Assembly: GCA_030591565.1 (NCBI GenBank)
Contig: JAUVAU010000021.1
Coordinates: forward strand, 1 to 37,865
Reading direction: 5' to 3'
DNA: 37,865 bases
Source of the DNA: Deltaproteobacteria bacterium
GTDB taxonomy: Bacteria > Desulfobacterota > Deferrisomatia > Deferrisomatales > BM512
In this document: piece by piece, positions 10,340-34,357 of the stretch
How the letters are laid out: each line of letters opens with the position of its first letter
Position numbering within the stretch: the first letter of the stretch is position 1
The notes under the pieces: generated by a model
Told to the model about the DNA's origin: nothing
Databases searched by the model: none
What the model saw: only the letters and a program-made list of their open reading frames with translations
Made by a program: the position numbers and the translations under genes

Positions 10340-11890
10340 ATGGAAAGCAAAAAGAGATCGGCCACGAAGGCAGTCGCCATAACCGCCATCGTCACGCTGG
10401 CGGCAGCGACCGCAGGATTCTATGGCCTATATAAAGCTGTTCTGGTCACACCGGCGGACCATGACCACACAGCTGCGACCGAAACCATGACCGAAGAAGA
10501 AGCGCAGCTCTACAGCTGCGGCATGCACCCCTGGATCATCGCCGAGGAGCCGGGCGCTTGCCCCATCTGTGGAATGGATCTGACGCCGATACGTGACCAG
10601 GCAGGGCCGAGCGCCGCGACTACGGGTGAGCGCCAAATAGTTTACTGGCGTGCGCCGATGGACCCCACCGAGATATACCACGAGCCGGGTCAATCCAAGA
10701 TGGGTATGGACCTTGTGCCGGTCTACGACGATGAACTGGTGGGCGGCGTGGATGTGAGCATCGACCCCGTTACCCAGCAGAATATGGCGGTGAGGACCGC
10801 ACCCGTGCGCACCGCCGCGCTCATCCGCACCATCCGCACCTACGGCAACGTGGCCTATGACGAGACGCGCACCGCCCATGTACACCCCCGCTTTGGCGGC
10901 TGGGTGGAGCGGATGTATGTGGACTACACAGGGCGCAGGGTCAAGAAGGGCGAGCCGCTCTTCGACATCTATTCCCCCGAGCTTGTTTCGGCCCAGGAGG
11001 AGTATCTGGCGGCCCGCAGGAACCTCTCGGGCAAGGGCGACTCCACGCTGCTGGCCTCGGCGAGAAAGCGCCTTGCATACTTTGGCGTCCATGAGCGCGA
11101 GATAGTCAAGCTGGAGAAGAGGGGTGAGGCTACCCGCACCCTGACAATACGCTCTCCCATTGCCGGCTTCGTCACCGCCAAGAAGGTGAGCGAGGGCCAC
11201 TTCGTCAAGAAGGGCGCCCCCGTCTACGAGGTGGCGGACCTTAGCAAAATCTGGCTTGAAGCCGCCATCTACGAACACGACCTCCCCTGGGTGAAAGAGG
11301 GTCAAAAGGCGCTGGTGCGCATGTCCTACCAACCCGGTGTGACCCTTGAGGGGCGCGTCACCTACATCGACCCCTACCTCAATGTGAAGACCCGCGATGT
11401 GGTCGCCCGGATCGAGTTCGACAACGCCAGCTTGAACCTCAAGCCCGGCATGTACGCCGACGTGTCCATTGAAGCGGACGAGGGGGCCCGGGGGCTTGTG
11501 ATACCCGACGAGGCGGTCATAAGAGGCGGTTCGCGCAACGTGGTGTTCATCACCAGGGGTGATGGCAAGTTTTCGCCCCGCGATGTGACCCTTGGCGTCT
11601 CGCTCGATGACGGCACTGTCCATGTGTTGACCGGGCTGGCCCCCGGCGATGAGGTGGTCGTCTCCGGTCAGTTCCTCCTCGACTCCGAATCCAAGCTCAA
11701 GGAGGCGATCCAGAAGATGCTGGAGGCCAAGTCCGGCAGTGGGCAGACCGGTGATAAGGAAGAGGACTTCTTCGGCGATATGGCTGACGGTGCCGGTGCC
11801 AACGGTGCTAGCGCCAAGGCCAAAGGCGATGACAGCTTTTTCGACGACCTGGAGGTAGACAAGGCCGGGGAGAAGAAAAGCGATGATTGA
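10340..11890 (+). CDS. cusB: CusB-like RND periplasmic adaptor with heavy-metal-binding motifs
   Basis: Membrane-fusion protein linking the inner-membrane pump to the channel. After an N-terminal anchor (residues ~10-35), a heavy-metal-binding domain occupies residues 58-84 (YSCGMHPWI...CPICGMDLTPI) with C60, C74 and C77. A second, cysteine-free version lies at 100-129 (VYWRAPMDPTEIYHEPGQSK, then MGMDLVPVY). The adaptor body follows: a lipoyl/barrel-sandwich half-motif (VHPRFGGWVERMYVDYTGRR), the alpha-hairpin (SAQEEYLAARRNL), the second half (TIRSPIAGFVTAKKVSEG) and a beta-barrel (KPGMYADVSI). The C-terminus is an unusual acidic tail with repeated FFGDM and FFDDL motifs. The last 8 bp overlap the pump gene. 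The HMBD plus the HME-type pump point to Cu/Ag, although Zn/Co systems share parts of this architecture. Confidence 0.92.
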   Translation: MESKKRSATKAVAITAIVTLAAATAGFYGLYKAVLVTPADHDHTAATETMTEEEAQLYSCGMHPWIIAEEPGACPICGMDLTPIRDQAGPSAATTGERQIVYWRAPMDPTEIYHEPGQSKMGMDLVPVYDDELVGGVDVSIDPVTQQNMAVRTAPVRTAALIRTIRTYGNVAYDETRTAHVHPRFGGWVERMYVDYTGRRVKKGEPLFDIYSPELVSAQEEYLAARRNLSGKGDSTLLASARKRLAYFGVHEREIVKLEKRGEATRTLTIRSPIAGFVTAKKVSEGHFVKKGAPVYEVADLSKIWLEAAIYEHDLPWVKEGQKALVRMSYQPGVTLEGRVTYIDPYLNVKTRDVVARIEFDNASLNLKPGMYADVSIEADEGARGLVIPDEAVIRGGSRNVVFITRGDGKFSPRDVTLGVSLDDGTVHVLTGLAPGDEVVVSGQFLLDSESKLKEAIQKMLEAKSGSGQTGDKEEDFFGDMADGAGANGASAKAKGDDSFFDDLEVDKAGEKKSDD

Positions 11891-14800
11891 ACGCATAATT
11901 GAGTGGTCGATAAACAACAAGTTCATGGTTCTCCTCGCCACTTTGTTCGCCATAGTGGGCGGCATACTGGCGATGATGAACATGTCGCTCGATGCGATAC
12001 CTGACCTCTCCGACGTACAGGTAATCATCTACACCGAGTATGCGGGCCAGGCCCCCCAGGTGGTGGAGGATCAGGTCACCTACCCGCTGACCACCGCGAT
12101 GCTCTCGGTGCCCCACGCCAAGGTGGTGCGCGGCTACTCCTTCTTCGGGCTCAGCTTCGTCTACATTATCTTCGAAGATGGGACCGATCTCTACTGGGCG
12201 CGATCGCGAGTGCTGGAATATCTCAACTTCGTCTCCGGCAGGTTGCCGCCGGGGGTGACGCCCTCGCTTGGCCCCGACGGTACCGGGGTGGGCTGGATTT
12301 ACGAGTACGTGCTCAAGGACACCACCGGCACCCATGACTTGCAGCAATTGAGGTCTATACAGGACTGGTACCTGCGCTACGAGCTGACCGCCGTGCCGGG
12401 GGTCTCCGAGGTGGCCGCGGTGGGTGGCTACGTCAAGCAGTATCAGGTGGAAGTGGACCCGGTGAAGCTCAGGGCCTACAACCTGCCGATCCAGAAGATT
12501 CGCGCAGCGATACAGCGCTCCAATAACGATGTGGGCGGCAAGCTCATAGAGATGGCTGAGGCCGAGTTCATGGTGCGTGGGCTGGGCTACATCCAGTCGA
12601 TCGAGGATCTTAATGCGATAGCCGTGGGGGTGGATTCCTCCGGCACGCCCATATTGCTTGGAAACATAGCCGACATCCACATCGGCCCGGAGCTGAGGCG
12701 GGGCGTGGCCGAGTGGAACGGCGAGGGCGAGGTAGCCGCCGGCATAGTGATCATGCGCCACGGCGAGAACGCGCTTGAGGTTATAGCGAACGTCAAGAAG
12801 AAGCTGAAAGAGTTGGAGAGCGGCCTGCCCGAAGGGGTGGAGATAGTGGAAGCCTATGATCGCTCCGGGTTGATAGAGCGCGCCATCGACACGCTCACCT
12901 GGAAGCTGATCGAGGAGATGATGGTGGTGGCGCTGATCTGCGTCATCTTCCTCCTGCACTTCCGCTCCGCCTTCGTGGCGATATTCACCCTCCCTGTGGG
13001 CATCCTGATCTCCTTCATGGTCATGTACCTTCTCGGCATCAACGCCAACATCATGAGCCTTGGCGGCATCGCCATCGCCATCGGCGTGATGGTGGACGCC
13101 TCGGTCGTGCTGGTGGAGAACGCCCATAAGCACCTTGAGCGGGACCGGGGAAAGAAGAGCCACCTGCAGATAATCGTGGACGCCTCCAAGGAGGTCGGCC
13201 CTGCGCTTTTCTACAGCCTGTTGATCATTACCGTCTCTTTCCTGCCTGTTTTTGCGCTTGAAGAGCAGTCGGGCAGGATGTTTAAACCGCTCGCCTACAC
13301 GAAGACCTTCGCGATGGGGGCCAGCTCGATCCTCGCCATCACCATTATTCCAGTATTGATGACCTTCTTTGTGCGCGACCGGACGCTGCCGGAGGGGATG
13401 ACGCGGCGCAACCGCGTGGGCGTCTGGCTCATAGCCATGTTGGGACCGCCGCTGCTGGTTATCGCGGGCGGACTCTACGGCATCAGCCTGCCCGATTGGG
13501 CGCTGACTGCGGCGCTGGGGGTGTCGATTTTCGCCGGAGTTTGCCTGATGCCCCAGAGGATAGTAGAGGAGAGGAAAAACCCGATCAGCCGCTTTTTTGT
13601 CTGGATATACAAGCCCTTCATCCATCTCGTGCTGAGCTGGCGGAAGGTCACAGTGCTCATCGCCCTGCTGGTGGTGGGGGCGACCTGGTATCCGCTCAGC
13701 CAACTTGGCAGCGAGTTCATGCCGCCGCTAAATGAGGGCGACCTGCTCTACATGCCCACCACCCTGCCCGGTGTGTCGGTGACCAAGGCGCGGGAGCTTT
13801 TGCAGCAGACCGACAAGATCATCCAGTCATTCCCGGAGGTCCACCACACGTTGGGCAAAGTGGGCCGCGCCGAGACCGCAACCGACCCCGCGCCGCTCTC
13901 CATGATCGAGACGACCATCGTCCTCAAACCCCAGATCGTATATGAGCAGGTCGCGGTGGACCGCTTCTTCTCCGCATGGCCCGGTTGGCTGAAGGGGCCG
14001 CTGACGCTGCTGTGGCCCGAGGTGGTGGATGGCGAGATGGAGAGCGAGTGGCGAAGGAAAGGGGTGGTCCGGTTCTTTTCGGGCTGGCCCGGTTTCATCA
14101 AAGCGCCGCTGGCATGGGTATGGCCCGAAGAGCGTTACATTACCACCGACGAGCTGGTGGACGACCTTGACCGCGCCATCCAGTTCCCCGGCTTGACCAA
14201 CGCCTGGACGATGCCGATCAAGACCCGCATCGACATGCTCTCCACCGGCATCAAGACCCCGGTGGGGATCAAGATCATGGGGCCGGACCTCCAGGTGCTC
14301 TCCGATCTGGGTGAGCGGATTGAAGCCGTCGTAGGCGATATCCCCGGGACGCTTTCAGCCTATGCGGAGCGGGTGACCGGCGGCAACTACATCGATTTCA
14401 ATATCGACAGACTTCAAATTGCCCGCTACGGCCTGACCGTGGCGGATGTGCAGGAGGTGATAATGAGCGCCATCGGCGGGATGAATATCACCTACACCGT
14501 GGAGGGGCTTGAGCGTTACCCGGTCAACCTGCGCTACAACCGGGAGCTGCGTGACGACCTGGGCAGGTTGAAATCGGTGCTGGTGCCGACCCCGACCGGC
14601 GCGCAGGTGCCGCTCGGTCAGCTGGCCGAGCTTTCGGTTCACAAGGGCCCGGCGGGGATCAAGAGTGAAAACGCCCGACGCACCGCCTGGGTCTACGTTG
14701 ACCTCAAAGGGGTCGATGTGGGCACCTACGTCAAGAACGCGCAGGTGGTTGTGGACAACAATGTCCAGCTGCCCGCGGGCTACTCGATCGTCTGGTCGGG

Positions 14801-15401
14801 ACAATTCGAGTACATGGAAAAAGCGCGCAAAACCCTTGAGCTGATAATACCCATCACCCTGGCGGTGATCTTCCTGCTGCTCTACATCCACTTTCACTCC
14901 GTGGCCGAGGCGATGATCGTCATGGCGAGTCTGCCCTTCGCGCTGGTGGGGGGCGTGTGGCTCATGTACCTGCTCGACTACAACGTCTCGGTGGCGGTGA
15001 TAGTGGGTTTCATCGCGCTGGCGGGGCTGGCGGCTGAGACCGGCGTCGTCATGCTTGTGTATCTGGATGAGATCTACGAGCGGCGATTGGATGACGGTAC
15101 CCTTCGCACCACCGGCGACCTGCATTTAGCCATTATCTCGGGCGCTGCCGAGCGCGTGAGGCCCAAGCTGATGACAGTGGCGACGACCTTGATAGGCCTG
15201 CTGCCGGTGATGTACGGCACCGAGACCGGCTTGGCGGTGATGAAACGCATAGCCGGACCGATGGTGGGAGGTCTCATCTCCTCCACCATCCTGACACTGG
15301 TGATAATCCCGGCTGTCTACGATATGTGGAAGCGGTGGGAGCTGCGTGGGCACATTGAAGATGGCCCCGCCGGCGATTACGGGGAAGAGGAGGTTGCGTG
15401 A
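11883..15401 (+). CDS. cusA: CusA-like heavy-metal RND efflux pump
   Basis: Inner-membrane proton-driven pump of the HME-RND family, exporting metal from periplasm and cytoplasm. The start MIERIIEWSINNKFMVLLAT is typical of the family. Transmembrane helix 4 carries IGVMVDASVVLVENAHK, the HME signature with the proton-relay Asp and Glu. At 1172 residues it is longer than E. coli CusA (1047). The extra length lies in an extended loop around residues 500-560 with added hydrophobic segments, and in a periplasmic insertion with a duplicated Trp-rich unit: RFFSAWPGWLKGPL near residue 691 and RFFSGWPGFIKAPL near residue 729. The conserved NAWTMPIKTRIDMLSTGIKT follows. Gene overlaps on both sides show tight operon structure. 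Metal choice (Cu+/Ag+ versus divalent) is inferred from neighbours. Confidence 0.95.
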   Translation: MIERIIEWSINNKFMVLLATLFAIVGGILAMMNMSLDAIPDLSDVQVIIYTEYAGQAPQVVEDQVTYPLTTAMLSVPHAKVVRGYSFFGLSFVYIIFEDGTDLYWARSRVLEYLNFVSGRLPPGVTPSLGPDGTGVGWIYEYVLKDTTGTHDLQQLRSIQDWYLRYELTAVPGVSEVAAVGGYVKQYQVEVDPVKLRAYNLPIQKIRAAIQRSNNDVGGKLIEMAEAEFMVRGLGYIQSIEDLNAIAVGVDSSGTPILLGNIADIHIGPELRRGVAEWNGEGEVAAGIVIMRHGENALEVIANVKKKLKELESGLPEGVEIVEAYDRSGLIERAIDTLTWKLIEEMMVVALICVIFLLHFRSAFVAIFTLPVGILISFMVMYLLGINANIMSLGGIAIAIGVMVDASVVLVENAHKHLERDRGKKSHLQIIVDASKEVGPALFYSLLIITVSFLPVFALEEQSGRMFKPLAYTKTFAMGASSILAITIIPVLMTFFVRDRTLPEGMTRRNRVGVWLIAMLGPPLLVIAGGLYGISLPDWALTAALGVSIFAGVCLMPQRIVEERKNPISRFFVWIYKPFIHLVLSWRKVTVLIALLVVGATWYPLSQLGSEFMPPLNEGDLLYMPTTLPGVSVTKARELLQQTDKIIQSFPEVHHTLGKVGRAETATDPAPLSMIETTIVLKPQIVYEQVAVDRFFSAWPGWLKGPLTLLWPEVVDGEMESEWRRKGVVRFFSGWPGFIKAPLAWVWPEERYITTDELVDDLDRAIQFPGLTNAWTMPIKTRIDMLSTGIKTPVGIKIMGPDLQVLSDLGERIEAVVGDIPGTLSAYAERVTGGNYIDFNIDRLQIARYGLTVADVQEVIMSAIGGMNITYTVEGLERYPVNLRYNRELRDDLGRLKSVLVPTPTGAQVPLGQLAELSVHKGPAGIKSENARRTAWVYVDLKGVDVGTYVKNAQVVVDNNVQLPAGYSIVWSGQFEYMEKARKTLELIIPITLAVIFLLLYIHFHSVAEAMIVMASLPFALVGGVWLMYLLDYNVSVAVIVGFIALAGLAAETGVVMLVYLDEIYERRLDDGTLRTTGDLHLAIISGAAERVRPKLMTVATTLIGLLPVMYGTETGLAVMKRIAGPMVGGLISSTILTLVIIPAVYDMWKRWELRGHIEDGPAGDYGEEEVA

Positions 15402-20704: not shown

Positions 20705-20835
20705 GCTGACAAGGGCTGGATTTTCTTCGAGAACCAGGAAGGTGATAAGAAATGACCGGAGGAATACTTGTCGTATTTCGAGGATCATTTCTTAGCCTGA
20801 CGAAGTCAATCGGAGAAAAGACAGGCTTTGTCAGC
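20705..20835 (-). repeat. Palindromic repeat D, divergent relative of repeats A-C in opposite orientation
   Basis: About 131 bp forming one long imperfect palindrome. Outer arms begin GCTGACAA on both strands (20705 and, reversed, 20835), and the inner arms 20747-20768 and 20774-20795 (TAAGAAATGA...AATAC) pair with about 5 mismatches. Read on the minus strand, its core CTCCGATTGACTTCGTCAGG then AAATGATCCTCGAAATAC matches the core of copies A-C. It lies in the 362-bp space between divergent genes; the rest of that space shows no gene. Confidence 0.8.
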
Positions 20836-20941
20836 GATCTGCCCCGAGGTTTATCCCCGGGTACATTTTTGGTATACATCCACTCTCTATTTTTACCTGC
20901 CACAGCCGGATAATCGGCGTTTTGGAGTTTACAGTCCAATC

Positions 20942-22708
20942 ATGAAGCCCAAGTACGATCTGGTGCTCGTTCACGCACCCAGTGTTTACGATTTTAGAAA
21001 GAAGCCCGCAGTGTACGGGCCGATCTCCGATGTCATCCCTCCCGGCCCCAATTTCGAGATGTACCCCATCGGGTTGATCTCCATCTCCGAGCATCTCACC
21101 AAGGCCGGGTTCGAGGTGCGCATAATCAACCTCGCCATGAAGATGATAAACGATTCCAACTTCGATCCGGAGAAATTTCTTGCCGGTATCGACGCCGCCA
21201 TCTTCGGCATACCGCTCCACTGGCTGCCCCACGTCAATGGAGCCGCGGCGGTGGCTAAGATCCTCAAGAAGCTCCACCCCGACAGGCCCGTCGCCTACGG
21301 CGGTTTTTCAGCGAGCTTTTTCCACGAGGAGATTATAAGGGAACACCCCTACGTGGATTTTGTCATGCGCGGCGACTCCACCGAGGCCCCGATGGTGGAG
21401 CTGGTTGAGCGCGTCGTGAGTGGTAAGCAGAGCTGGGGCGAGGTGCAAAATCTTACCTGGCGCGGCAGTGACGGCGAGCCGGTGGTCAATGAGTTGGATT
21501 ACCGCCCCGATGACCTGGACCACGTCTTCACCAACTACGAGCACGCCATCCGCCAGACGATACGGCACATGGATTTCGTGGGCTACCAGCCCTTCGAGAG
21601 CTGGAAACGCTACCCGATCACCGCAGTGTTCACCTGCCGTGGCTGCATCCACAACTGCCGCACCTGCGGGGGCGGGGCGCACTTTTTCCATAACACGATG
21701 GGGAGGGACCGCCCGGCTTACAAGAGCCCCAAGCTGGTCGCGCAGGATATGAAGACGGCTGAGACCTACCTTTCCGCCCCGATCTTCATCATCGGCGATG
21801 TGTTGCAGCTCGGTGAGGAGTACGCCCGCGAGTTGTTGGCGGAGATCAAGCGGCTGAAGATAAAGAATGAAGTGATCATAGAGTTTTTTGACCCGCCGGA
21901 TCGTAAACTGCTCGAAATGATCGCCGACGCCATACCCAAGTTCAATATCGAGATCAGTCCGGAGAGCCACGACGAAGAGGTGCGCAAGGCCTTTGGCCGC
22001 CCCTTCGACAATGCGTCGCTGGAAAGGTTCATCGGCGACGCGCTGGAGCTGGGCTGCCGCCGCTTCGATCTCTTCTTCATGACCGGCCTGCCCAAACAGA
22101 ACGCCGAATCGGTGCTCGAAACGGTGGATTATTGCGAGGAGCTGTTGGAAAAATTCGGCTCAGATCAGCGTCTCTATCCCTTCATCAGCCCCCTCGCGCC
22201 CTTCGTGGACCCGGGCAGCGCCGTGTGGGAGCACCCCGAGAAGTGGGGGTACAAGCTGCTCTTCACCAAGCTCACCGATCTGGCCCAGGCGCTTGAGAGC
22301 CCCAGCTGGAAGTACTTTCTCAACTATGAAACCGACTGGATGACACGGGACGAGATCGTCTACACCACCTATGAAGCGGGCGTGCGGCTAAATGACGTGA
22401 AGGCGCGCTACGGCTTGGTGGGCAAAGCGGAGGCGGAGCTGGTCCGGCGCAAAAACACCGCGGCGGTGGAGATGATGAAGCGCATCGATACCGCGCTGGA
22501 GATAGAGGATGAGAGTGAGCGCGAGGCGGAGGTCGCAAGGCTACGCAACCAGATCAGCGACCTTGACGAGTCCACCGTATGCGATAAATCCGAGCTTGAC
22601 TGGCCCACCGGCTTTCTGAAGGTCAACCTCTTCAAGGTCGCGCCCATCGTACTCTCCGAGTTGGTGCGCACGATCTTCAAGGGACCGGGCCGGGGCAGGC
22701 GAGGATAG
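20942..22708 (+). CDS. B12-binding-domain radical SAM protein
   Basis: A 588-residue enzyme. Residues ~1-150 form a cobalamin-binding-like Rossmann domain (DLVLVHAPSVYDF, YPIGLISISEHLTKAGFEV, AYGGFSASFF), but without the DxHxxG cobalt-ligating motif. The radical-SAM cluster motif is CIHNCRTC (CxxxCxxC) near residue 235, preceded by another Cys (CRGCIHNC). The TIM-barrel half includes EISPESHDEEVRKAFGR, a typical SPE-type SAM contact. The C-terminal ~100 residues are charged and helical. It resembles the archaeal/bacterial Ta0216-type family of unknown reaction. ATG 20942 is used; the longer reading begins inside repeat D. It precedes the suhB-like gene by 1 bp and is certainly cotranscribed with it. 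Confidence 0.9.
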   Translation: MKPKYDLVLVHAPSVYDFRKKPAVYGPISDVIPPGPNFEMYPIGLISISEHLTKAGFEVRIINLAMKMINDSNFDPEKFLAGIDAAIFGIPLHWLPHVNGAAAVAKILKKLHPDRPVAYGGFSASFFHEEIIREHPYVDFVMRGDSTEAPMVELVERVVSGKQSWGEVQNLTWRGSDGEPVVNELDYRPDDLDHVFTNYEHAIRQTIRHMDFVGYQPFESWKRYPITAVFTCRGCIHNCRTCGGGAHFFHNTMGRDRPAYKSPKLVAQDMKTAETYLSAPIFIIGDVLQLGEEYARELLAEIKRLKIKNEVIIEFFDPPDRKLLEMIADAIPKFNIEISPESHDEEVRKAFGRPFDNASLERFIGDALELGCRRFDLFFMTGLPKQNAESVLETVDYCEELLEKFGSDQRLYPFISPLAPFVDPGSAVWEHPEKWGYKLLFTKLTDLAQALESPSWKYFLNYETDWMTRDEIVYTTYEAGVRLNDVKARYGLVGKAEAELVRRKNTAAVEMMKRIDTALEIEDESEREAEVARLRNQISDLDESTVCDKSELDWPTGFLKVNLFKVAPIVLSELVRTIFKGPGRGRRG

Positions 22709-25285: not shown

Positions 25286-26221
25286 CTAGAAGTCGAAGAC
25301 ATCCGTGGACATGATGTAGCGTTCGCCGGAATCGGGGAGGATGATTACGTAAGTCTTGCCCTCGCAGTCGTTGGTCGTGGCGTGTTTTAGCGCCGCCGCC
25401 ACCGCTGCGCCGCTGGAGATGCCGCAGAGGATACCCTCTTCACGGGCCATCCTGCGAGTCATGGATATCGCTTCGTCGTCGTCCACCTGAATGATATCGT
25501 CAACCAGGTCGAGGTTGAGGTTTTCGGGTTTGAAGCCGGCTCCGATCCCCTGAATGCGGTGTGGGCCGGGAGCGCCGCCGCTTAGCACCGGACTCGCCGA
25601 GGGCTCCACCGCCACGGAGGTGATTTTTTTGTTTTTGGTGTTTTTGATGTAGTTGCTCACGCCGGTTATGGTGCCGCCGGTGCCCACTCCCGAGATGAGC
25701 ACGTCGATCTCGCCGTTGGTGTCTTCCCATATCTCGGGGCCGGTGGTCACCTCGTGTACGTAGGGGTTTGCGGGGTTTTCAAACTGGTTGGGCATGAAGT
25801 ATTCGCCTGGCCTGGAGTCGGTGATTCTGTTCGCCTCGTCAATGGCTCCGCCCATGCCCTTGTTGCCGGGGGTGAGCACCAGCTCGGCGCCAAAGGCTGA
25901 GAGCACTTTTCGGCGCTCAAGGCTCATTGTTTCGGGCATCGTGAGGATCAGCTTGTAGCCCCTGGCCGCGCAGACGTAGCCGAGCGCGATGCCGGTGTTT
26001 CCGCTGGTGGGCTCGACAACCGACATCCCGGGCTTCAGGAGTCCTTTTTTTTCTGCGGTATTTATCATGGAAGCGCCAATACGGCACTTAACTGAAAAGG
26101 AGGGGTTTCTACTCTCAATCTTGGCTAAAAAGCGTGCGTTAATTCCGCTGAATATCCGGTTGATCTGCACCAGAGGCGTGTTGCCTATACTTAGACTGTT
26201 ATCATCGTATACTCTGCTCAT
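25286..26221 (-). CDS. cysK: Cysteine synthase A (O-acetylserine sulfhydrylase)
   Basis: PLP enzyme making cysteine from O-acetylserine and sulfide. The 311 residues carry [11 protein letters not shown] with the PLP Lys, [13 protein letters not shown] (substrate loop), [15 protein letters not shown] (PLP phosphate-binding glycines) and [12 protein letters not shown] with the pyridine-N Ser region. It ends with [15 protein letters not shown], the CysK-type C-terminus. The asparagine loop motif reads as in CysK and not CysM. GAGGG precedes the ATG. It is monocistronic: a terminator follows it and a large palindrome lies upstream. Confidence 0.96.
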
Positions 26222-26386: not shown

Positions 26387-26950
26387 TTAAATGAGCTTTT
26401 TGTCTTTAAGGAAGTCGCGAACGGCTTTGGCGATATTTTCCGCTTCGGAGAGATTTTGAATCGTCTCCAGTGGAAGCAGTCCACTTGTTTTGGCGATCAG
26501 GCGGGGCAGGGCGGGGAATTTTTTCAGGGCGTGTTTCTGCGCTATGGGCGCAGCGAGGGAGGATGGGTTGGCTTCATCGCTAAAGCCCAGGGGACCCAGC
26601 CAGATTAGGTTCAGCTCCTCCTGATAAGCCTTCTTGACCGCCTTGAATGCGGCTTGGGGGTCGGCGGGAACATCCTTGCCCATCCGGGTAAGCGCGCTTG
26701 AGGCGTAGGCCAGCGCCATATCCACGTTGCCGCCGGTCATCTCTTTAAAAAGCTCGTCGCCACTTGCGTAGTCCACTATCTCAATCGTGGTTCCGGTGCG
26801 CTCGTTTATGAGGATAGCCAGCAGCTGCGCCACGACCCTGGAGCGCGCGGTGGAGTCGGTGCCTACGATAAGGGTCTTGCCCACGCAGCCAAGCGCGGGA
26901 AGGGCGACGAGGGTCAGAACCAGGAGGATGGAGAGAATTCTTCTAATCAC
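26387..26950 (-). CDS. Miniature substrate-binding protein (OpuAC-like), exported
   Basis: A 187-residue protein with a signal (MIRRILSILLVLTLVALPAL then GC, a possible but imperfect lipobox). The first mature part, TLIVGTDSTARSRVVAQLLA followed by INERTGTTIEIVDY, matches the opening of glycine-betaine/choline-type (ProX/OpuAC) binding proteins. The end, GLLPLETIQNLSEAENIAKA followed by VRDFLKDKKLI, matches their C-terminal helix. About 100 central residues, the second lobe, are missing, so it is much shorter than the usual ~280. It starts at GTG 26950 with GAGGAG upstream. No ABC permease or ATPase is nearby. It is last in the exported-protein operon, so a binding or sensory role seems likelier than transport. 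Confidence 0.65.
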   Translation of the reverse strand: MIRRILSILLVLTLVALPALGCVGKTLIVGTDSTARSRVVAQLLAILINERTGTTIEIVDYASGDELFKEMTGGNVDMALAYASSALTRMGKDVPADPQAAFKAVKKAYQEELNLIWLGPLGFSDEANPSSLAAPIAQKHALKKFPALPRLIAKTSGLLPLETIQNLSEAENIAKAVRDFLKDKKLI

Positions 26951-27025: not shown

Positions 27026-28843
27026 TCACTCTGGCCGCTTGTGTTCCACCAGATCGAATGCACGAACCATACCGTCGCGCCCGCCGATGAACAAGCGACC
27101 GCCGAGCACCGCCGGGGTGGTGTGGATCGGTTCATCCAATTTTATCCGGTCCAGCACGCGGCCGCCCTTAGGGTCGATAATATAGAGCGAACCGCCAAGG
27201 GTAGCAACCGCCAGGTATCCGTTGATGAGAGCCGGGGCCGAGCGTATGCCGCCGTCCAGCTTCCTCGTCCACTTGGCGGTGTCAAGGGTGACCCTGGTAA
27301 GACAGCCGCCATCGTCGGCGACGTAGACCGCATCCTTCAGCGTCGCCGGTTGTGCGTACCAGGAGGGGCCGCAAAGCCCGATGGCCGCGCTCAAACTTCC
27401 CGTCGTGGGGTCGATCACGTTCAGCTGTCCGTTCTTGTCGCCCGCGTAATAGCGCCCTTCTCGCTCCACGACGCCGGAGAGGAGCGGGGCTTCGCCGGTC
27501 CAGGAGAAAGTCTTCTCACCGGTGGCGGGGTCAAGTAGCGCCAGTTCGCCGCCGCTTGAGGGGGCTATGATCTTGCCGTCTCCAGAGATTGTCAGGTCGG
27601 CGCGGTGGGGAGCACCGCCCTCGTAGGTCCAGACCTTGGAGAGTTTGCCATCCTCCACGTTGAACCCGTGGACGTTGCCCGCCCAGGTGGCTACAAAGAG
27701 CGTCTTGCCACGGAAAACCGGCGCGGACTGGCGGTGGTCGTCGGCGTTGGATTCCACCTCGGTGAAGGTGTCCAGCACCTCCAGCGTCTCGCCATCCAAC
27801 AGTGCCAGCTTTCTGTCCCAGCTTTGTACCGCCAGATAATTTTTGCCGGAGATACGCGTCAGCGACGGTCTTGCGTCAACCGTGTCGCCCAGCTTGGTCT
27901 GGGCTATGACCTTGCCGGCGAGAAATCCCAGCCGTTTGACGTTACCCGACCAGTCGGCTGCGTAGACACCAAACTCATCCGCCATTATGTCGGCATCGAC
28001 GAACCCCTCCATTTCGGTCTGCCAGACCTTGGTGAGCATCGGCCAGTCAGCGGGTCCGACCTTCACCGTTCCCGCTGCCGGGTTCCTCTTCAGGTCGGCG
28101 TCGGTGTTGGTCTCGGCGCGAAAATCCAAGGGTTCTTTCTCCCACTGGTTGCCGGTGGTGGAGACGGTGCCAACGTAGAAGTCGCCCAGGCGAAAGGGCG
28201 TGTCGTTGCCGCTGAACCGGTTGCGGGTGATGCGGCTCCCCTTGTCTCCCTCGAAGAGGAAGATGCCCCGGCGGTTGTCCCTGAACCAGGAGTTTTTTAC
28301 GACGTTTTGGGAGGTCCTGGCGTTGTACCCCTTGCCTGTATTGTTGGCGAAGAGGCAGCGGTTGAACTCTATGTGGCTCTCGCCGATGCGTGTGCCATCC
28401 ACGTTGAAGCGCAAGATCGAGTCTTCGATCTTGCCGGCGGCAAAATGCAGGTGCAGTCCCCGCGTGGAACCCTCTATCACCACGTAAGAGGCTGAAATTT
28501 TACCAAAATCGACGCGTATCTCGCCCCACCTGCCGGGCGACACCATGCCATCGGCGGTGGTGAAAATGATCGGCTTTTTGGGTGTGCCGCGCGCCTGGAG
28601 GTCGCCTTCCAGCACGATGGAGATCTCGCCCCAGCCGTCATTGTCTTCATCCTTGAAGGCGAACCGCACCTCGGTGCCAGGCTCGATTATCAGTTTTTGC
28701 CCACGCTCCAGCCTGAAGGTCTCCTCAAGGGTGACCACCCCCGACCACCTTATCGCGTCGCCATCGAAGAGCGAGCCAAGCGAGGCGCAACCAAAGAACA
28801 GCGGAAGCGCAGCCAAAAGCATCAGGGGGCGTGCAAGTCTCAC
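27026..28843 (-). CDS. Lipoprotein with beta-helix and PQQ-like beta-propeller domains
   Basis: A 605-residue protein with a lipobox (LPLFFGC, Cys near residue 19). Residues ~35-240 form a right-handed parallel beta-helix of the pectate-lyase/NosD type: GTPKKPIIFTTADG, IEGSTRGLHLHFAAGKIEDS, NVVKNSWFRDNRRGIFLFEG. Residues ~265-600 form a PQQ-like propeller of repeated blades (VYAADWSGNVKRL, LFVATWAGNVHGFNVEDGKL, YYAGDKNGQLNVIDPTTGSL, LAVATLGGSLYIIDPKGG, LFIGGRDGMVRAFDL). This is a binding or scaffold protein on the outer membrane, not a dehydrogenase, since no PQQ-site residues are recognised. GTG start overlaps the TGA of the upstream lipoprotein gene. Confidence 0.8.
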   Translation of the reverse strand: MRLARPLMLLAALPLFFGCASLGSLFDGDAIRWSGVVTLEETFRLERGQKLIIEPGTEVRFAFKDEDNDGWGEISIVLEGDLQARGTPKKPIIFTTADGMVSPGRWGEIRVDFGKISASYVVIEGSTRGLHLHFAAGKIEDSILRFNVDGTRIGESHIEFNRCLFANNTGKGYNARTSQNVVKNSWFRDNRRGIFLFEGDKGSRITRNRFSGNDTPFRLGDFYVGTVSTTGNQWEKEPLDFRAETNTDADLKRNPAAGTVKVGPADWPMLTKVWQTEMEGFVDADIMADEFGVYAADWSGNVKRLGFLAGKVIAQTKLGDTVDARPSLTRISGKNYLAVQSWDRKLALLDGETLEVLDTFTEVESNADDHRQSAPVFRGKTLFVATWAGNVHGFNVEDGKLSKVWTYEGGAPHRADLTISGDGKIIAPSSGGELALLDPATGEKTFSWTGEAPLLSGVVEREGRYYAGDKNGQLNVIDPTTGSLSAAIGLCGPSWYAQPATLKDAVYVADDGGCLTRVTLDTAKWTRKLDGGIRSAPALINGYLAVATLGGSLYIIDPKGGRVLDRIKLDEPIHTTPAVLGGRLFIGGRDGMVRAFDLVEHKRPE

Positions 28844-29994
28844 GGAACCGCCCTTATGAGTATCGTAATCCCGTCGGTGGTGTCGCCCTGGGTCAACTTG
28901 AAACCGGTGCGCGGCGCGGACTTGGCAAACCCGATCATCTCGCCGCTGCGTGGGGGGCCGCCGAGCCGCTGGCGTGCGCCCAGGTAGAAGGTCCCCTCCC
29001 GCGTGGTCGCAAGGGTGAAGAGGCCATCGGGGCCTGTGGGTTCGCCCACCTCCAGGGGTTCGTTCAGCATGCGTGGGTTGTCATAGAGGCAGGGCCGAAA
29101 GCCCGCAGCCGGGGTGCCGCCGCTGTCTGTCACGACCCCGGTGAGCGTGGCGAAACGGGTGAGGTAACGCGACATCTTCTCCTGCGGCGGTATCTTCACG
29201 ACCTCGAAATCCGCCGTGAGGTGCTCGCCTTCACGCAGCGCCAGGGGCAGGGAGGGATGGATTCCGAAGAGATCGCCGGAGACCAGCGGCCCGGTTTGTC
29301 GTGAGCCTTGCCGGAGTCTCGCCGCCAGAAAATATCTGCCGGGTTCAAGAGCTATTTCAAAGGAGCCATCGGGGCCGGTGGGCATGCTCTTCACGTAGGG
29401 AGGGCCACGAAAGCCCTTGTCGGCGCGCAGATAGACGTAGACGTTCGCCCCCTCTACCGGAGCGCCGTCCATGAGTATTTGGCCGCTAATCGCCTCAACT
29501 CCGCTAGAAACAGCAACGGGATGAACCGGGGCCAGGGGCAGGCTGACGCCGCGCTGGTTGTAGTGCGCTCTCACGGGGTTTCGGCCAAAGAAGGCGAAGC
29601 CTCCCCCAGAGCCGTCAGAGACTCCATTAGTGGAACGGGCGACGAGCAGGTATTTCCCCGGAGGGGTTTTAAGGATGAAGCGGCCCGCGTCGCCCGAAGT
29701 CGTGGTCGCGGCGGGTTCCTGTTTGTCCGAGGGGGTGATGAATTGGTCCAGCGTATACAGTTCGACAGTTGCGCCGGAGACTCCCCGGCCATTTCGCGAT
29801 ACGAGGCCGTCGATGGCAATCGGGCCGGTGTCCGTGCCGACGGCCCCCACGGCAGTACCCATGACGGATCCGCTCGACTGGCAACCGGCCAGCAGTAGGA
29901 GGATAGCCAAAAAAAGAAGGCTGCTTTTAAACAGCCTTCTTTTAGCTATCGCTTTATGTGCCTTACCTAGCGGCAACCTCACCGGGCTCTTCAA
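28840..29994 (-). CDS. Lipoprotein with repeated carboxypeptidase-regulatory-like domains
   Basis: About 384 residues at the longest reading. The lipobox is LLLLAGC with Cys at residue 38, followed by a Ser/Gly linker and three CarboxypepD_reg-like beta-sandwich units. Each has the GxV-x-G-x-PVxGA-x-V and PGKYLLVA/PGRYFLAA pattern: DGLVSRNGRGVSGATVELY, SGQILMDGAPVEGANVYVYL, and TGVVTDSGGTPAAGFRPCLY. Such domains bind surface polymers or act as stalks. The start is uncertain: 29994 is a TTG inside the preceding gene, and GTG 29982 (GAAGAG upstream) is an equal choice. Residues 18-29 are encoded by an intrinsic terminator hairpin (29909-29943), which is odd and probably lowers expression relative to the upstream gene. 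Confidence 0.75.
   Translation of the reverse strand: MKSPVRLPLGKAHKAIAKRRLFKSSLLFLAILLLLAGCQSSGSVMGTAVGAVGTDTGPIAIDGLVSRNGRGVSGATVELYTLDQFITPSDKQEPAATTTSGDAGRFILKTPPGKYLLVARSTNGVSDGSGGGFAFFGRNPVRAHYNQRGVSLPLAPVHPVAVSSGVEAISGQILMDGAPVEGANVYVYLRADKGFRGPPYVKSMPTGPDGSFEIALEPGRYFLAARLRQGSRQTGPLVSGDLFGIHPSLPLALREGEHLTADFEVVKIPPQEKMSRYLTRFATLTGVVTDSGGTPAAGFRPCLYDNPRMLNEPLEVGEPTGPDGLFTLATTREGTFYLGARQRLGGPPRSGEMIGFAKSAPRTGFKLTQGDTTDGITILIRAVP
29909..29943 (-). terminator. Strong intrinsic terminator inside the lipoprotein signal-peptide coding region
   Basis: A 12-bp perfect stem (29912-29923 with 29932-29943) with an 8-nt loop. On the minus strand the stem ends CAGCCTTCTT and runs into seven T residues. 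It lies about 20 bp after the stop codon of the FG-GAP protein gene, exactly where a terminator belongs, yet the lipoprotein reading frame is open through it. Confidence 0.85.
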
Positions 29995-31426
29995 TCGTCA
30001 GGGTCTGACCGGTCTGGACGCCTTCGATGATCTTGCGTGCGCCGCTGGGGAAGCGAACTTCCACGGTGTAGACGCTGGTTGAGGAGGCTCCGAAGTGGAG
30101 CTCCTGGGGCGGCTGGGCGCAAAAACCGCTGGAGGTCTGAAGGTCAGCCATGCCGACCAGCCTCTCGCCCTCGCGAACCCATACGCGTGAACCTATCGCC
30201 ATGGAGTTGGAGATCGTGCCGGAGAGGCGGACCTTGATCCAGTTGGCGTCATTGGTGGTGTTGAGGAACATCTTGTTGGGAGCGCCCCAGTTGACCACGT
30301 AGAGGTCAAGGTCGCCGTCGTTGTCGATGTCGGCGAAGCTGGTGCCCTTGGTGCGCACCGAGGAGCACATCACCGCCTCGTTGTCCTGGGCGATGTCGGA
30401 GAAGGTGCCGTCGCCATTGTTGCGGTAGAGCTGGTTGGCCACCTTGCAGTCGCCCTCGTAGAGGTCAAGGTCGCCATCATGGTCGATGTCGCCAAAGGTC
30501 GGTCCCTTGCCCCAGCCGGTGTTCGCCAGCCCCGAGTCCTGGGCGGCGGGGGGGAAGTTGCCGGCGCCGTCGTTGACGTAGTAGCCGTTGGCCCCCACGT
30601 AGTTGGAGACGAAGAGGTCAAGGTCGCCATCGCTGTCGGTGTCGGCAAACGCCGCGCCGAGGCCCCAGTTGGAATCGGAGACGCCGCGTGCGACGCCTTC
30701 GCTGGTGAATTTTCCCTTGCCGTCGTTGATGTAGAGGGTGTTCGGCTCACCGGCGGGGTAGCGGCCGTTGATCACGTAGAGATCAGGCGCGCCGTCGTTG
30801 TTCACGTCGGCCCACACGGCCATCCAGGACCAGGAGCGGTCGCCTACGCCAGCCGTGTCGGTGACGTCGGTGAAGGTGCCGTTGCCGTTGTTGCGATAGA
30901 GGATGTTCTTGGCGCCGACGCCGTAGTTGGCGAGGTAGAGGTCGATGAAACCGTCGTTATTGTAGTCGGCCGCGGCTGCTGCGTAGGTGAACTCCTTGGA
31001 GCCCACACCCGCCTTGTCAGTCACATCGACGAACTTGCCGTCCACGTTCTTGAAGAGCCTGTTGGCTTCGATCTCATAGCGACCGCCCTTGGGCACGTAG
31101 AGGTCGACCCAGCCGTCGTTGTCAAAGTCGAAGAAGACCGAACCCATTGCGAACCCGGCGTCGTCCAGACCTTCGCCCGCCTCACCGGTGGCGTCGGTGA
31201 AGACACCCTTGCCGTCATTTATCATGAGACGGTTGGCGCCGCCCTTGTTCGAGATGTAGAGGTCCCAGTCACCGTCATTGTCGACGTCGGCGAAAGCCGC
31301 GCCCTTGCCGTTGCCGGGGTCGCCGGTGCCCGAGGTGTCAGTTACGTCTTTCATCAGGCCCGTTCCCGCCCAGGCAGGTATTGCCATGACGGTTGCGATT
31401 ACGAGGATCAAAACAAGGCGTTTCAT
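29963..31426 (-). CDS. Exported FG-GAP/VCBS seven-bladed propeller protein with ASPIC/UnbV domain (CRTAC1-like)
   Basis: A 487-residue protein with signal MKRLVLILVIATVMAIPAWA. It has seven repeats of the calcium-binding form DxDxDGxxDLY, for example FADVDNDGDWDLYISN, FFDFDNDGWVDLYVP, ADYNNDGFIDLYLAN, WADVNNDGAPDLYVIN, FADTDSDGDLDLFVSN, FGDIDHDGDLDLYEGD and FADIDNDGDLDLYVVN: an integrin-alpha-like beta-propeller. The last ~90 residues are an ASPIC/UnbV domain (SRVWVREGERLVGMADLQTS, VEVRFPSGARKIIEGV). A strong AAGGAG site precedes the ATG. First gene of the exported operon and followed by a terminator, so it is probably its most abundant product. Function unknown; surface ligand or matrix binding is usual. 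Confidence 0.9.
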   Translation of the reverse strand: MKRLVLILVIATVMAIPAWAGTGLMKDVTDTSGTGDPGNGKGAAFADVDNDGDWDLYISNKGGANRLMINDGKGVFTDATGEAGEGLDDAGFAMGSVFFDFDNDGWVDLYVPKGGRYEIEANRLFKNVDGKFVDVTDKAGVGSKEFTYAAAAADYNNDGFIDLYLANYGVGAKNILYRNNGNGTFTDVTDTAGVGDRSWSWMAVWADVNNDGAPDLYVINGRYPAGEPNTLYINDGKGKFTSEGVARGVSDSNWGLGAAFADTDSDGDLDLFVSNYVGANGYYVNDGAGNFPPAAQDSGLANTGWGKGPTFGDIDHDGDLDLYEGDCKVANQLYRNNGDGTFSDIAQDNEAVMCSSVRTKGTSFADIDNDGDLDLYVVNWGAPNKMFLNTTNDANWIKVRLSGTISNSMAIGSRVWVREGERLVGMADLQTSSGFCAQPPQELHFGASSTSVYTVEVRFPSGARKIIEGVQTGQTLTIEEPGEVAAR

Positions 31427-31520: not shown

Positions 31521-32474
31521 TCAGCCAAGAGCCATCCGGGCGAAGCCGAGAAGCATCGAACCCACAAGCCCTATCGCTATGTATGTTACCACAACTCTAG
31601 GCAAAAAAATCGCCGTAAGTGCGGCCATCGCCGGAATAGATGTAACCGGTCCGGCCATGAGGAATGCAAGGTCTGCGCCCACCGCTATACCCTTGGCTTG
31701 CAACCCCGCCAAAATGGGCACAACCGGTATCTGGTGCGCAGGCAGGGGCAGGGCAACTGCTGCCGCCGCCACCACCGAGCCGGGTCCTTTTACGCCGACC
31801 AGATTGGCTACCCAGTCGATCGGTACGTAAACGTGTATCGCCGCCTCCAGCACAATAGCCATCGCGACCCACATCCCCACAAACCCGCCCACATCGATGA
31901 AGCGGTCCACGAAGAAGCGGAACTTGCTCTCCCTGGGCACCACCGTCATCGTTTTCAGGCGCAGGCCGTTGTGGCAACCTATCTCATAGGCGCTTGCCAG
32001 CTGGCCGTTATCTTCATGTACTGGAGAAAGCTTGATAATGTTTCCAGAAAAATAGCCTGAACGCTCAAAAAACCATGTGATCATCCCCGCCGACATCCCT
32101 AAAAAGAGCGCTCCGCCCAGTTTCCACCACGCCAGATCGGCTCCAACGCCGCCCCAGGTAAGGAAAAACGAGGCAGGGTCCATTACCGGACTGGTTATCA
32201 GTAGCGCCATCAGGGGCGCCAGTGGCACGCCGGTGAGCGCCATGGGAATGACTATCGGGAGTATGCCGCAGGAGCAGAGCGGACTCAGCGCCCCGATAAG
32301 GGTAGCTGCCGGGATCGCCCATATCCCGAACTTGCCCACGAAACCGCGCACCTGGCGGTCCCACTGGAAGGTCTTTATCAGCGCGGCCAGCGTGATTCCC
32401 AAAAGGGTGAACCACCACATGCGCCCCGCCTCATACCAGATGACCTGGAAAAACTTCGCAAGATCGGGGCTCAC
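31521..32474 (-). CDS. SO_0444-family (DUF318-like) metal efflux permease
   Basis: A 317-residue inner-membrane protein with two bundles of about four helices each. The first bundle holds LSPLCSCGILPIVIPMALTG (C67 and C69) followed by LLITSPVMDPASFFLTWG; the second holds PLPAHQIPVVPILAGLQAKG and FLMAGPVTSIPAMAALTAIF. The CSCG motif and the GTPxAP-like repeat are the hallmarks of the permease family that includes the SO_0444 Cu/Zn efflux proteins and ArsP relatives. GTG start overlaps the TGA of the FmdE-like gene. As the last gene of the pseudo-AAA+ operon it gives the operon a transport role, probably of a soft metal or metalloid. Confidence 0.85.
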   Translation of the reverse strand: MSPDLAKFFQVIWYEAGRMWWFTLLGITLAALIKTFQWDRQVRGFVGKFGIWAIPAATLIGALSPLCSCGILPIVIPMALTGVPLAPLMALLITSPVMDPASFFLTWGGVGADLAWWKLGGALFLGMSAGMITWFFERSGYFSGNIIKLSPVHEDNGQLASAYEIGCHNGLRLKTMTVVPRESKFRFFVDRFIDVGGFVGMWVAMAIVLEAAIHVYVPIDWVANLVGVKGPGSVVAAAAVALPLPAHQIPVVPILAGLQAKGIAVGADLAFLMAGPVTSIPAMAALTAIFLPRVVVTYIAIGLVGSMLLGFARMALG

Positions 32475-32923
32475 GGCAGGATCTCCAGGGCCACTATCTT
32501 CTCTTCGTCCATGACTTCAAGGGCTTCAAGGACCTTTTCCCGCTCCTCCCGGCTACCACCGGCTCGCTTTATCTCGCCATACTTTTTGCCAAAGGCCAGC
32601 GCCTCTTCGGTGAGCGTCGCCCGCAGGAAGATGTTTTTGGCCTGGTTCTCAACTTCCAGCACGTGCAGCCCCTCGGGGCGTATCTCCAGGTTGCTGTTGC
32701 CCGGGGTCGTCCCCAACGCGGCCATTATGCCGTCGATGGCGCAGGTGGCGTGGCGATAGAGCGCTTTCAGGTCGTTGCCCTTTCTGTGGCGACCAACCCG
32801 TGAGGCTGCGGCGAGGCCAAGCCGTGCGCCCATTATCGACATGGGGCAGCGGTGGCCGTGGAGCCGCTCTAAAAATGCGAAGAACTCTTCCGCCTCAGAA
32901 GGCGTAGTGATGGGGGCAGTCAT
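32471..32923 (-). CDS. FmdE-like metal-binding protein
   Basis: A 150-residue protein with the FmdE (formylmethanofuran dehydrogenase subunit E-like, PF02663-type) core: LHGHRCPMSIMGARLGLAA with H22, H24 and C26, and HATCAIDGIMAALGTTPGNS with C61 and D64. The second family cysteine (GCTxGK) is replaced by GTT here, and the C-terminal zinc ribbon of full-length FmdE is absent. Despite the family name, no methanogenesis gene is near, so a stand-alone metal-binding role is likelier. It overlaps the AAA+ gene end by 29 bp and the permease start by 4 bp. Confidence 0.85.
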   Translation of the reverse strand: MTAPITTPSEAEEFFAFLERLHGHRCPMSIMGARLGLAAASRVGRHRKGNDLKALYRHATCAIDGIMAALGTTPGNSNLEIRPEGLHVLEVENQAKNIFLRATLTEEALAFGKKYGEIKRAGGSREEREKVLEALEVMDEEKIVALEILP

Positions 32924-33776
32924 TTTCCATTATCTCGTGGTAGACATCGACCATGTCGGGGGTGAGCCACGGTTCGATCTTTTTGAGCGCCGCTTCAAAA
33001 TCCTGGTGGCTGACCATATCATTATCGGCCTTGACCGCCTCCAGGGTGGCGCGCTTGCAAAGGCTCTCGGCATCCCAGCCCACGTAACCGGCGGTGAGTT
33101 CGGCGAGGTCCCTGGCGTTCACCGAGGGGTCGAGCTTGGGCATCTTTTTGAGGTAGATGTCCAGCATCCCCTCCCGGTCGATGGCGCGGGGGGGGTGGAC
33201 GAAGATCTTGCGGTTAAAACGCCTCTTTTCCTTGATTATCGCCTGGTCCACCGTGTCGATGCGGTAGCACGAACCCACCAGCATCACATCCTTGTGGCCC
33301 ATGATCCGGTCTATCTGGCGTATGAACAGCTCGCTGAGTTCCCTGTCGGCGAAGGTCGGGGGGATGCCCCTGAAGTTATCCTTGCCCCACTCGTAGGAGC
33401 AGCCGGCGCGGGGGCAGAGCCATTCGGTGTCGGAGATGAAGAGGACGCAGGGCGCTTCGTGAATCGCGTCGTCAAAGGCGTTCACCATCTGCTCGGGCTT
33501 CCCAAGCATCTCCTGGCCCGAGATGTAGACGAAGCCCACGCCAGCGTCGGTGGCGGCGGCCTCGGCCAGCATGGTGATGCCCACCCCCAGCGGTCCCCAC
33601 AACATTACGCCTGCGGGTATCCCCAGGCCCAGGGCTTCCATCTGCTCGGGTTTTTTAAGGGGAAGTGAGACCATATCGCGCACCAACTCCTTTACTTCGG
33701 CGAATCCCCCGATATCATCCCAGGTAAGGAGCGGTTTGCGTACCTCGTAGAATATTTTATCAAGCTTGCGGTGCAT
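32895..33776 (-). CDS. AAA+ protein of the Cdc48/FtsH type with inactivated nucleotide site (pseudo-ATPase)
   Basis: A 293-residue single AAA+ module. The lead LTWDDIGGFAEVKELVRDMV and PAGVMLWGPLGV are typical of Cdc48/VAT/FtsH-type AAA domains. However, Walker A reads GPLGVGIT (residues 61-68), with Ile in place of the essential Lys, confirmed on the DNA as ATC. Walker B reads VLFISDTEW (111-119) in place of hhhhDE, and sensor-1 Asn is replaced (VGSCYRID). Arg-finger-like residues (KRRFNR, 184-189) and the lid helices (AELTAGYVGWDAESLCKRA) remain. There is no N-domain or protease. It heads a coupled operon with FmdE and the permease, and is divergent from Hsp20. Confidence 0.9.
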   Translation of the reverse strand: MHRKLDKIFYEVRKPLLTWDDIGGFAEVKELVRDMVSLPLKKPEQMEALGLGIPAGVMLWGPLGVGITMLAEAAATDAGVGFVYISGQEMLGKPEQMVNAFDDAIHEAPCVLFISDTEWLCPRAGCSYEWGKDNFRGIPPTFADRELSELFIRQIDRIMGHKDVMLVGSCYRIDTVDQAIIKEKRRFNRKIFVHPPRAIDREGMLDIYLKKMPKLDPSVNARDLAELTAGYVGWDAESLCKRATLEAVKADNDMVSHQDFEAALKKIEPWLTPDMVDVYHEIMENDCPHHYAF

Positions 33777-33886
33777 GATTCCTCGATTTTCATTTGGGGT
33801 TTTATTGTGCGATTATATACGAGTATGCCACGAAAGGTTACAAGCAAACCTCGTGCCTTGAAGGTGGGCGGGTAAGGAGTATCGCA

Positions 33887-34357
33887 ATGGGTAGGGGCTT
33901 CGACGACGAATTGACGGACAAAGATTTATTGCAACTCCTCGGTCTGAGAGAGCGGATGAACAGGCTCTTTGACGAGCAGCAGCTCCACCTTGGTTCGGCG
34001 GCAACCGGCCCGGCCATGAACTGGACGCCCCCGGTGGACATAGTGGACGCAGGGAACAAATTCATCCTCACCGCCGAACTCCCCGGAGTGGATGAAGAGG
34101 CCGTGGACCTTGAGCTGGTCGGCGATTCGCTGATCCTCAAGGGCGAGCGCCCCCCCCACGTGACCGGCACCAATAGTTGCTACCATCGCATCGAGCGGCC
34201 CGAAGGCCCCTTTCGCCGCACCTTCACGCTGCCCGCCGGGGTGGACGCCTCGGCCATAAGCGCCGAGCTAAAGGATGGCGTGCTCGAAGTCCACCTCCCC
34301 AAGACCCCCTCGGAGGGCGACGGGGCGAAGGAGGTAGACGTGGAGATCGAAAGATGA
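33887..34357 (+). CDS. Small heat shock protein, Hsp20/alpha-crystallin family
   Basis: ATP-independent holdase of 156 residues. An N-terminal helical arm (RERMNRLFDE) precedes the alpha-crystallin domain from WTPPVDIVDAGNKFILTAEL through DLELVGDSLILKGERP, RPEGPFRRTFTLPAGVD to AELKDGVLEVHLPK, the G-x-L-E-V/I-x-L-P signature. ATG 33887 is set by TAAGGAG 8 nt upstream; the longer reading from 33794 would add 31 unrelated residues. Neither a CIRCE element nor a clear sigma-32 promoter was seen. It is divergent from the pseudo-AAA+ gene across 110 bp, an arrangement that suggests shared regulation. Confidence 0.93.
   Translation: MGRGFDDELTDKDLLQLLGLRERMNRLFDEQQLHLGSAATGPAMNWTPPVDIVDAGNKFILTAELPGVDEEAVDLELVGDSLILKGERPPHVTGTNSCYHRIERPEGPFRRTFTLPAGVDASAISAELKDGVLEVHLPKTPSEGDGAKEVDVEIER

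Follow-up and report, generated by a model that had tools for sequence, protein, structure and literature searches.

Several AAA+ pseudo-ATPases have been described: the torsin activators LAP1/LULL1, the inactive AAA modules of dynein, the clamp-loader subunit delta-prime and the plastid FtsHi proteins. All of them keep the AAA+ fold and have lost the use of nucleotide, and most known cases come from eukaryotes or clamp loaders. To our knowledge, none of them forms a stand-alone bacterial family of single-domain classical-AAA proteins associated with a radical-SAM operon. We analysed a stretch of 37,865 nucleotides from a Deltaproteobacteria bacterium (contig JAUVAU010000021.1; hereafter the window) and found a gene for a protein that also appears to have given up the use of nucleotide (Table 1). 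By sequence and fold this pseudo-AAA protein belongs to the AAA+ group, consisting of an AAA domain (PF00004; 59.6 bits against a cut-off of 21.2, 5.7e-16) and a lid (AAA_lid_3; 39.2 bits against 27.2, 5.1e-10), and the solved structures nearest to it in sequence are archaeal VCP-like ATPases. A promoter scan upstream of the gene found no promoter and one weak terminator-like site, and the single palindrome found in an inverted-repeat scan (within 60 bases) lies away from it. Literature searches, with many subscription papers outside their coverage, found no paper on the family or on its tie to the GeoRSP radical-SAM system described below, and searches on GeoRSP itself found no relevant paper.

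Table 1. The pseudo-AAA gene, its diagnostic segments and the operon in the window.
Feature	Position	Strand	Remarks
Pseudo-AAA protein, 293 aa	32895..33776	(-)	ATG start, TGA stop; classical-AAA fold predicted, catalytic set missing
Former Walker A, G61-T68 (GPLGVGIT)	33573..33596	(-)	Lys replaced by Ile67, 32/32
Former Walker B, residues 111-118 (VLFISDTE)	33423..33446	(-)	Asp replaced by Ser115, Glu by Asp116
Enlarged pore-loop-2 region, residues 124-145 (AGCSYEW..N.RGIPPTFAD)	33342..33407	(-)	10/22 positions invariant, 30 members
Tyr171 at the sensor-1 Asn position	33264..33266	(-)	32/32
Retained Arg-finger positions R186 and R189 (RFNR)	33210..33221	(-)	32/32
C-terminal tail, residues 286-293 (DCPHHYAF)	32898..32921	(-)	C287 and H289 in 30/30
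FmdE-type protein, HxHxC...C metal-site residues	32471..32923	(-)	First 29 nt shared with the AAA gene
ArsP_1-type permease with PLCSCG	31521..32474	(-)	Overlaps the FmdE-type gene by 4 nt
FG-GAP / ASPIC-UnbV repeat protein	29963..31426	(-)	
CarboxypepD_reg-domain envelope protein	28840..29994	(-)	Start codon uncertain
Beta-helix and PQQ/BamB-like propeller protein	27026..28843	(-)	
Small protein, CVGKTL after a secretion-signal-like stretch	26387..26950	(-)	OpuAC match in a homologue; operon marker
PALP-fold enzyme, pyridoxal-phosphate dependent	25286..26221	(-)	In 8/31 loci

The first-pass annotation had read the protein as a pseudo-ATPase produced by repurposing of an intact fold within an intact operon, pointing to a Walker A motif with isoleucine for lysine, a nonstandard Walker B and the loss of the sensor-1 asparagine. 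The Walker A stretch, residues 61-69, indeed reads GPLGVGITM, and SCYRID stands where AAA proteins carry ATNRPD. Residues 111-120 read VLFISDTEWL. In an ungapped alignment to CDC48 the place of the Walker B aspartate is taken by Ser115 and that of the catalytic glutamate by Asp116, leaving one acid and no Asp-Glu pair. When the strand is slid by one residue, with Asp116 at the aspartate position, the residue after it varies in the family among T, C, V, I and N, and thus neither register yields an acidic pair. The annotated loss of the pair therefore stands, refined by the finding that Asp116 keeps an acid at the catalytic glutamate. The Walker A lysine, the Walker B Asp-Glu pair and the sensor-1 asparagine of an active AAA+ ATPase are each absent, and the arginine fingers are present. 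From these residues we infer that the protein neither binds nor hydrolyses ATP.

A first search of relatives detected homologues in 13 of 59 genomes, the window's own included (E 1e-40). Publicly available genome contigs were then scanned, and of the 15 loci recovered 14 belong to the family; the organisms are labelled Deltaproteobacteria, Deferrisomatales, Nitrospirae, Actinobacteria/Actinomycetes/Actinomycetota, Desantisbacteria or only 'bacterium'. A profile built from 22 pseudo-AAA sequences was then run over whole genomes. It was positive in 22 of 395 genomes of the window's own phylum (E 1e-50), in 5 of 245 Nitrospirota genomes, all five already known, and in 4 of 246 Actinomycetota genomes (E 1e-45), of which three were known and the fourth proved to be a canonical two-domain CDC48 with intact P-loops. 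Members scored at least 389 bits, partial ones included, against 159.6 bits for that CDC48, the best intact-P-loop match; the few members and the wide gap mark a family that is sparse but sharply bounded. Close homologues with an intact GPPGTGKT, which the annotation had named as the observation that would overturn it, were looked for, and the homologue and profile searches found no intact-P-loop homologue closer than about 34% identity. We also rejected an overlooked intact relative, given the score gap and the degenerate state of the sole intermediate, L070. L070 (1866-2690, (+)) is a second, more degenerate family copy in a Desantisbacteria genome, scoring 206 bits and lacking the arginine fingers and the tail.

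No relative was encoded on the viral contigs searched. Among the matches listed from phage and plasmid records, all were below 60% identity; those annotated were FtsH, a proteasome-associated ATPase, the CDC48 family and the AAA family, and several were unannotated. The anti-phage ATPase IetA was tried and rejected as an identity for the protein (36.7 bits against an NCBIfam cut-off of 510; a partial PADLOC match of 40.6 bits), as was an anti-phage role in general, since the PADLOC matches were confined to weak, partial ones to IetA and no relatives were seen on the viral contigs.

Across 32 homologues from Deltaproteobacteria, Nitrospirota, Actinomycetota and Desantisbacteria, Leu63, Ile67, Met69, Asp116 and Tyr171 are invariant, Ser115 occurs in 31 (one Thr) and Thr68 in 29, with lysine in three Actinomycetota; two of these members are partial and some are near-copies, so the figures count sequences and not independent events. 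Four loci (L016-L019) were left out as apparent copies of L005, L006, L007 and L009 with identical matched sequence, and L030 was left out at 33% over 87 residues. The partial L028 and L051 were omitted from the tree and the block counts, and L070 was omitted from the per-site counts and included in the tree. In the altered blocks (former active site, pore and tail) 56 of 101 positions are invariant, compared with 20 of 192 elsewhere, the blocks having been chosen after the alignment was seen and canonical AAA proteins also being most conserved there. As far as the alignment tells, the altered state of the catalytic and pore blocks is held fixed across the family.

A tree was built from 45 rows; a branch with support of 100/100 and a length of 2.39 sets 31 family rows apart from the rest, and the bootstrap trees agreed on a single pseudo-AAA clade; L070 has a very long branch and its placement is unsure. 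The dN/dS ratios in the four closest pseudo-AAA pairs were 0.071, 0.091, 0.116 and 0.084, indicating purifying selection and not decay. The AlphaFold monomer was predicted with a mean pLDDT of 92.2 and a pTM of 0.89. Foldseek placed the PAN AAA domain on top (8.7e-21), with p97, VAT and FtsH close behind, and VIA-align gave p97 D2 as the best match (Z 27.5, rmsd 2.5, 267 residues aligned), where rows within 1 Z count as tied and the ranking thus does not fix the nearest subfamily. The model shows a single-domain classical-AAA protein whose predicted fold is closest to p97/CDC48 D2. Taken together, the alignments and tree show a clade in which the ATPase residues and, as set out below, pore loop 1 are missing throughout and which evolves under purifying selection.

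These data bear directly on decay, strain-specific mutation or assembly error as the origin of the altered residues. Such an origin would explain the degenerate motif itself and nothing more; identical changes recur in 32 homologues from separate assemblies, close pairs are under constraint and the operon is intact. We give this origin practically no credence, and judged from the sequences it is already refuted by the conservation. Fixation across phyla, selection, the single clade, the fold and the operon all support the annotated repurposing. The same replacements occur in bacteria of several phyla and the gene travels with GeoRSP, which marks the family as a lasting, new type of component, as opposed to a damaged gene.

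The changes extend beyond the catalytic residues, and beyond the annotation, which lacked the remodelled pore, the tail and the association with GeoRSP. Compared with 14 canonical CDC48 and FtsH domains, the pseudo-AAA family has a five-residue deletion at pore loop 1, which removes the aromatic residue of an active AAA+ ATPase, about 10 additional residues after Walker B (SYEW..N.RG.PPTFAD) and an insertion directly before the arginine fingers. In the lid, the alanine of the GAD motif is tryptophan (W234) in all 30 members compared. Some features of the pocket could still accommodate a ligand. Thr68, the P-loop glycines and the one remaining acid make nucleotide binding possible and speak against an ATP-independent reading, and an atypical ATPase or nucleotide binder might use Asp116, Glu118, Thr68 and the arginine fingers, with a statically bound nucleotide serving structure or sensing. 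The conservation of Thr68, the glycines and Asp116 fits this proposal, as does the lysine found one place later in the three Actinomycetota; set against it are the replacement of the Walker A lysine, Walker B aspartate and sensor-1 asparagine in every full member and the tryptophan in the lid. We consider it unlikely, though with a real chance of being right.

The retention of both arginine fingers beside a dead cis site suggests that subunits still pack side by side, the neighbour being either a further copy or a different AAA protein. The latter case corresponds to one of the annotation's candidates, a regulator of another AAA+ ring, in which the protein would be a non-catalytic subunit that tunes an active ring and offers its arginine fingers in trans. 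Inactive FtsH-like subunits may play such a role in plastids, and the window's genome encodes two FtsH-like proteins. These two were the sole FtsH- or CDC48-type proteins found there, and no active partner of the CDC48 or PAN type was found in the genome or the operon. Identity to FtsH proteins is only about 29-30%, no transmembrane part for joining FtsH is evident in the sequence, pore loop 1 is deleted and the pore-loop-2 region is rebuilt. The candidate is thereby weakened, and we regard it as quite improbable. The loss of pore loop 1 argues against threading, and together with the missing CDC48/PAN partner it favours a passive scaffold.

The C-terminal tail follows the pattern D-C-x-H-x-Y-x-F, with D286, C287, H289, Y291 and F293 each present in 30 of 30 members. 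HbYX is the proteasome-type C-terminal tail; the pseudo-AAA tail ends in HYxF, and we rejected this equivalence. We likewise rejected the idea that the tail is conserved only because the start of FmdE overlaps it, as 12 full-length members without FmdE nearby keep the tail. Going by its cysteine and histidine residues, one might guess that the tail binds metal.

The pseudo-AAA gene heads a same-strand operon, followed by genes for the FmdE-type protein, the ArsP-type permease and envelope proteins. Open reading frames in 31 loci, all with the AAA gene, were picked by homology and scanned with profiles. The neighbours were CarboxypepD_reg (22 loci), beta-helix/PQQ (21), FmdE (18), the small marker protein (17), ArsP (17), DUF362 (14), FG-GAP (11), a NapGH-like polyferredoxin (11) and U32-type genes (6-7); these counts are descriptive, since the profiles were built from these very loci, and are low where contigs end, several being short. 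The FmdE-type protein of the window matches PF02663 with 65.2 bits (cut-off 22.9), and no solved structure was related to it by sequence at E 0.01. HxHxC...C is kept in 18 of 18 FmdE neighbours and PLCxCG in 17 of 17 permeases. FmdE proteins with solved structures coordinate Zn or Ni by two histidines and two cysteines in the HxHxC...C pattern, and the same source reports that FmdE genes are mostly found beside metal-ion transporter genes (PMC2954224).

A role as a cytosolic sensor or carrier of a metal or oxyanion, acting with FmdE and the ArsP-type permease and having no part in scaffolding GeoRSP, would draw on the conserved Cys/His tail, the intact motifs of both partners, the transporter neighbourhood of FmdE genes given in that source and the TupABC-like genes in Actinomycetota loci. 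The persistence of the tail in members without FmdE nearby tells against such a role, and the tail accounts for the smaller share of the invariant positions, most of which fall in the rebuilt pocket and pore. We think it improbable, if not to be dismissed.

Several other genes lie near family members. A divergent Hsp20 gene (33794-34357, (+)) starts next to the AAA gene in the window; a tblastn match at its place was seen in L035, L037, L038, L039 and L040 and not in other loci. In the Actinomycetota loci L024, L025 and L027 the AAA gene follows a U32-type pair near tungstate-type ABC genes, with a TupA-like gene in L024 and L025 (in L024 211.6 bits, under the cut-off of 400). L035-L040 have multihaem-cytochrome model matches divergent from the AAA gene, 1.5-5.5 kb upstream on the opposite strand, and all of these except L039 have thioredoxin-like matches in the same region. 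Elsewhere the window encodes a CusB/CusA-type heavy-metal efflux pair (10340-15401, (+)) and a TIGR04190 B12-binding radical SAM protein (20828-22708, (+); 640.7 bits, cut-off 500).

The operon marker was found in 38 of 395 same-phylum genomes (E 1e-15), among them 21 of the 22 with the AAA gene. Seventeen genomes had the marker and no AAA gene, and nine of these loci were examined, all by profile scans and seven by gene lists, two lying on contigs of about 5 and 3 kb. PhnD-like, YedE, ResB-like and beta-helix genes occur among them, not all in each, and one locus (L109) encodes the GeoRSP radical SAM protein TIGR04303 at 618.5 bits, above the cut-off of 400, and its neighbours include PqqD and SPASM genes. 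TIGR04303 was detected in 26 of the 395 same-phylum genomes at E 1e-60, 20 of them over the cut-off. It was present in 19 of 22 AAA genomes versus 7 of 373 others; Fisher's test of this association ignores kinship, 11 of the 22 being the window's own genome or from its order, and its values therefore cannot be read as if the genomes were independent events. Of the ten family genomes that lie outside this phylum set, GeoRSP was found in six, once as a partial match under the cut-off, bringing the total to 25 of 32 family genomes. The AAA operon and the GeoRSP genes thus occur in largely the same genomes, and the family co-occurs strongly with GeoRSP.

The association has exceptions. GeoRSP was not found in 7 of the 32 family genomes, including all three Actinomycetota and G398; the same-phylum cases are G010 (81% complete), G249 and G343. 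Conversely, 7 of the 395 genomes have GeoRSP and no AAA gene. In one of these (G207) the contig ends inside the marker gene, where the related loci L127 and L128 have the AAA gene next to it; another (G009) is 92% complete and also lacks the marker. The window's genome itself encodes the GeoRSP radical SAM protein (406.5 bits, cut-off 400), on a contig other than that of the AAA operon, in a locus (L122, G000:C75:4000-22800) with the gene order PhnD-like, TPR, YedE, beta-helix, PqqD, radical SAM. The AAA operon and GeoRSP form one run in L127 and L128 (family f30), and in L131 up to the contig end; outside a few genomes they lie kilobases or contigs apart. Hints of a cargo from the neighbours disagree, YedE, ArsP, TupA-like and NicO pointing variously to sulphur, selenium, metal and tungsten handling. 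Selenium, an organometal and tungsten were weighed as the cargo, and on these neighbours we favour none of the three.

Our preferred reading, held at roughly even confidence, is that the pseudo-AAA protein is an ATP-independent cytosolic scaffold of the AAA operon/GeoRSP module. Its subunits would still pack along the retained arginine-finger edge, a fixed partner or ligand would sit in the remodelled nucleotide pocket and the pore-loop-2 region, and the C-terminal tail would, as a guess, dock an FmdE-type protein or a metal ion. The scaffold might hand cargo to the permease and serve maturation or traffic of the GeoRSP product. The ring, the metal link and the dependence on GeoRSP are presumed from the features above. 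The family genomes in which GeoRSP was not found, all three Actinomycetota among them, count against the link to GeoRSP, as do GeoRSP genomes without the AAA gene and the mostly separate operons; the 13 of 31 loci without detected FmdE count against a link to FmdE. Bolder, and in our estimate unlikely without being far-fetched, is the idea that evolution has made a passive, pre-organised platform out of an ATP-driven AAA+ threading ring, whose old pocket and pore would bind a specific partner or cofactor and which would be an unrecognised core component of GeoRSP, connecting cytosolic maturation with the metal-handling permease and the envelope proteins. With its losses fixed across several phyla, the family offers a clean natural test of what the AAA fold can do without ATP, and it gives a second handle on GeoRSP, tying that system to defined cytosolic and envelope partners.

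Besides the pseudo-ATPases named at the outset, three described systems come closest to this locus. With GeoRSP (radical SAM/SPASM/PqqD, TIGR04303) the window's genome shares the PqqD, PhnD-like and YedE genes, and the AAA family co-occurs with it; the two differ in that GeoRSP also exists where there is no AAA gene, and the Actinomycetota members of the AAA family come without GeoRSP. The FmdE family (PF02663) is represented by the adjacent gene with its HxHxC...C residues, a partner and not the pseudo-AAA protein itself. CDC48/p97 (VCP) D2 is the nearest in fold and in domain order, lid included, and TIGR01243 is the best NCBIfam match, at 141.9 bits far below its cut-off of 802.65. Unlike CDC48, with its two AAA domains, the pseudo-AAA protein has one, and it differs from D2 in lacking the catalytic residues and pore loop 1 and in carrying a conserved Cys/His tail.
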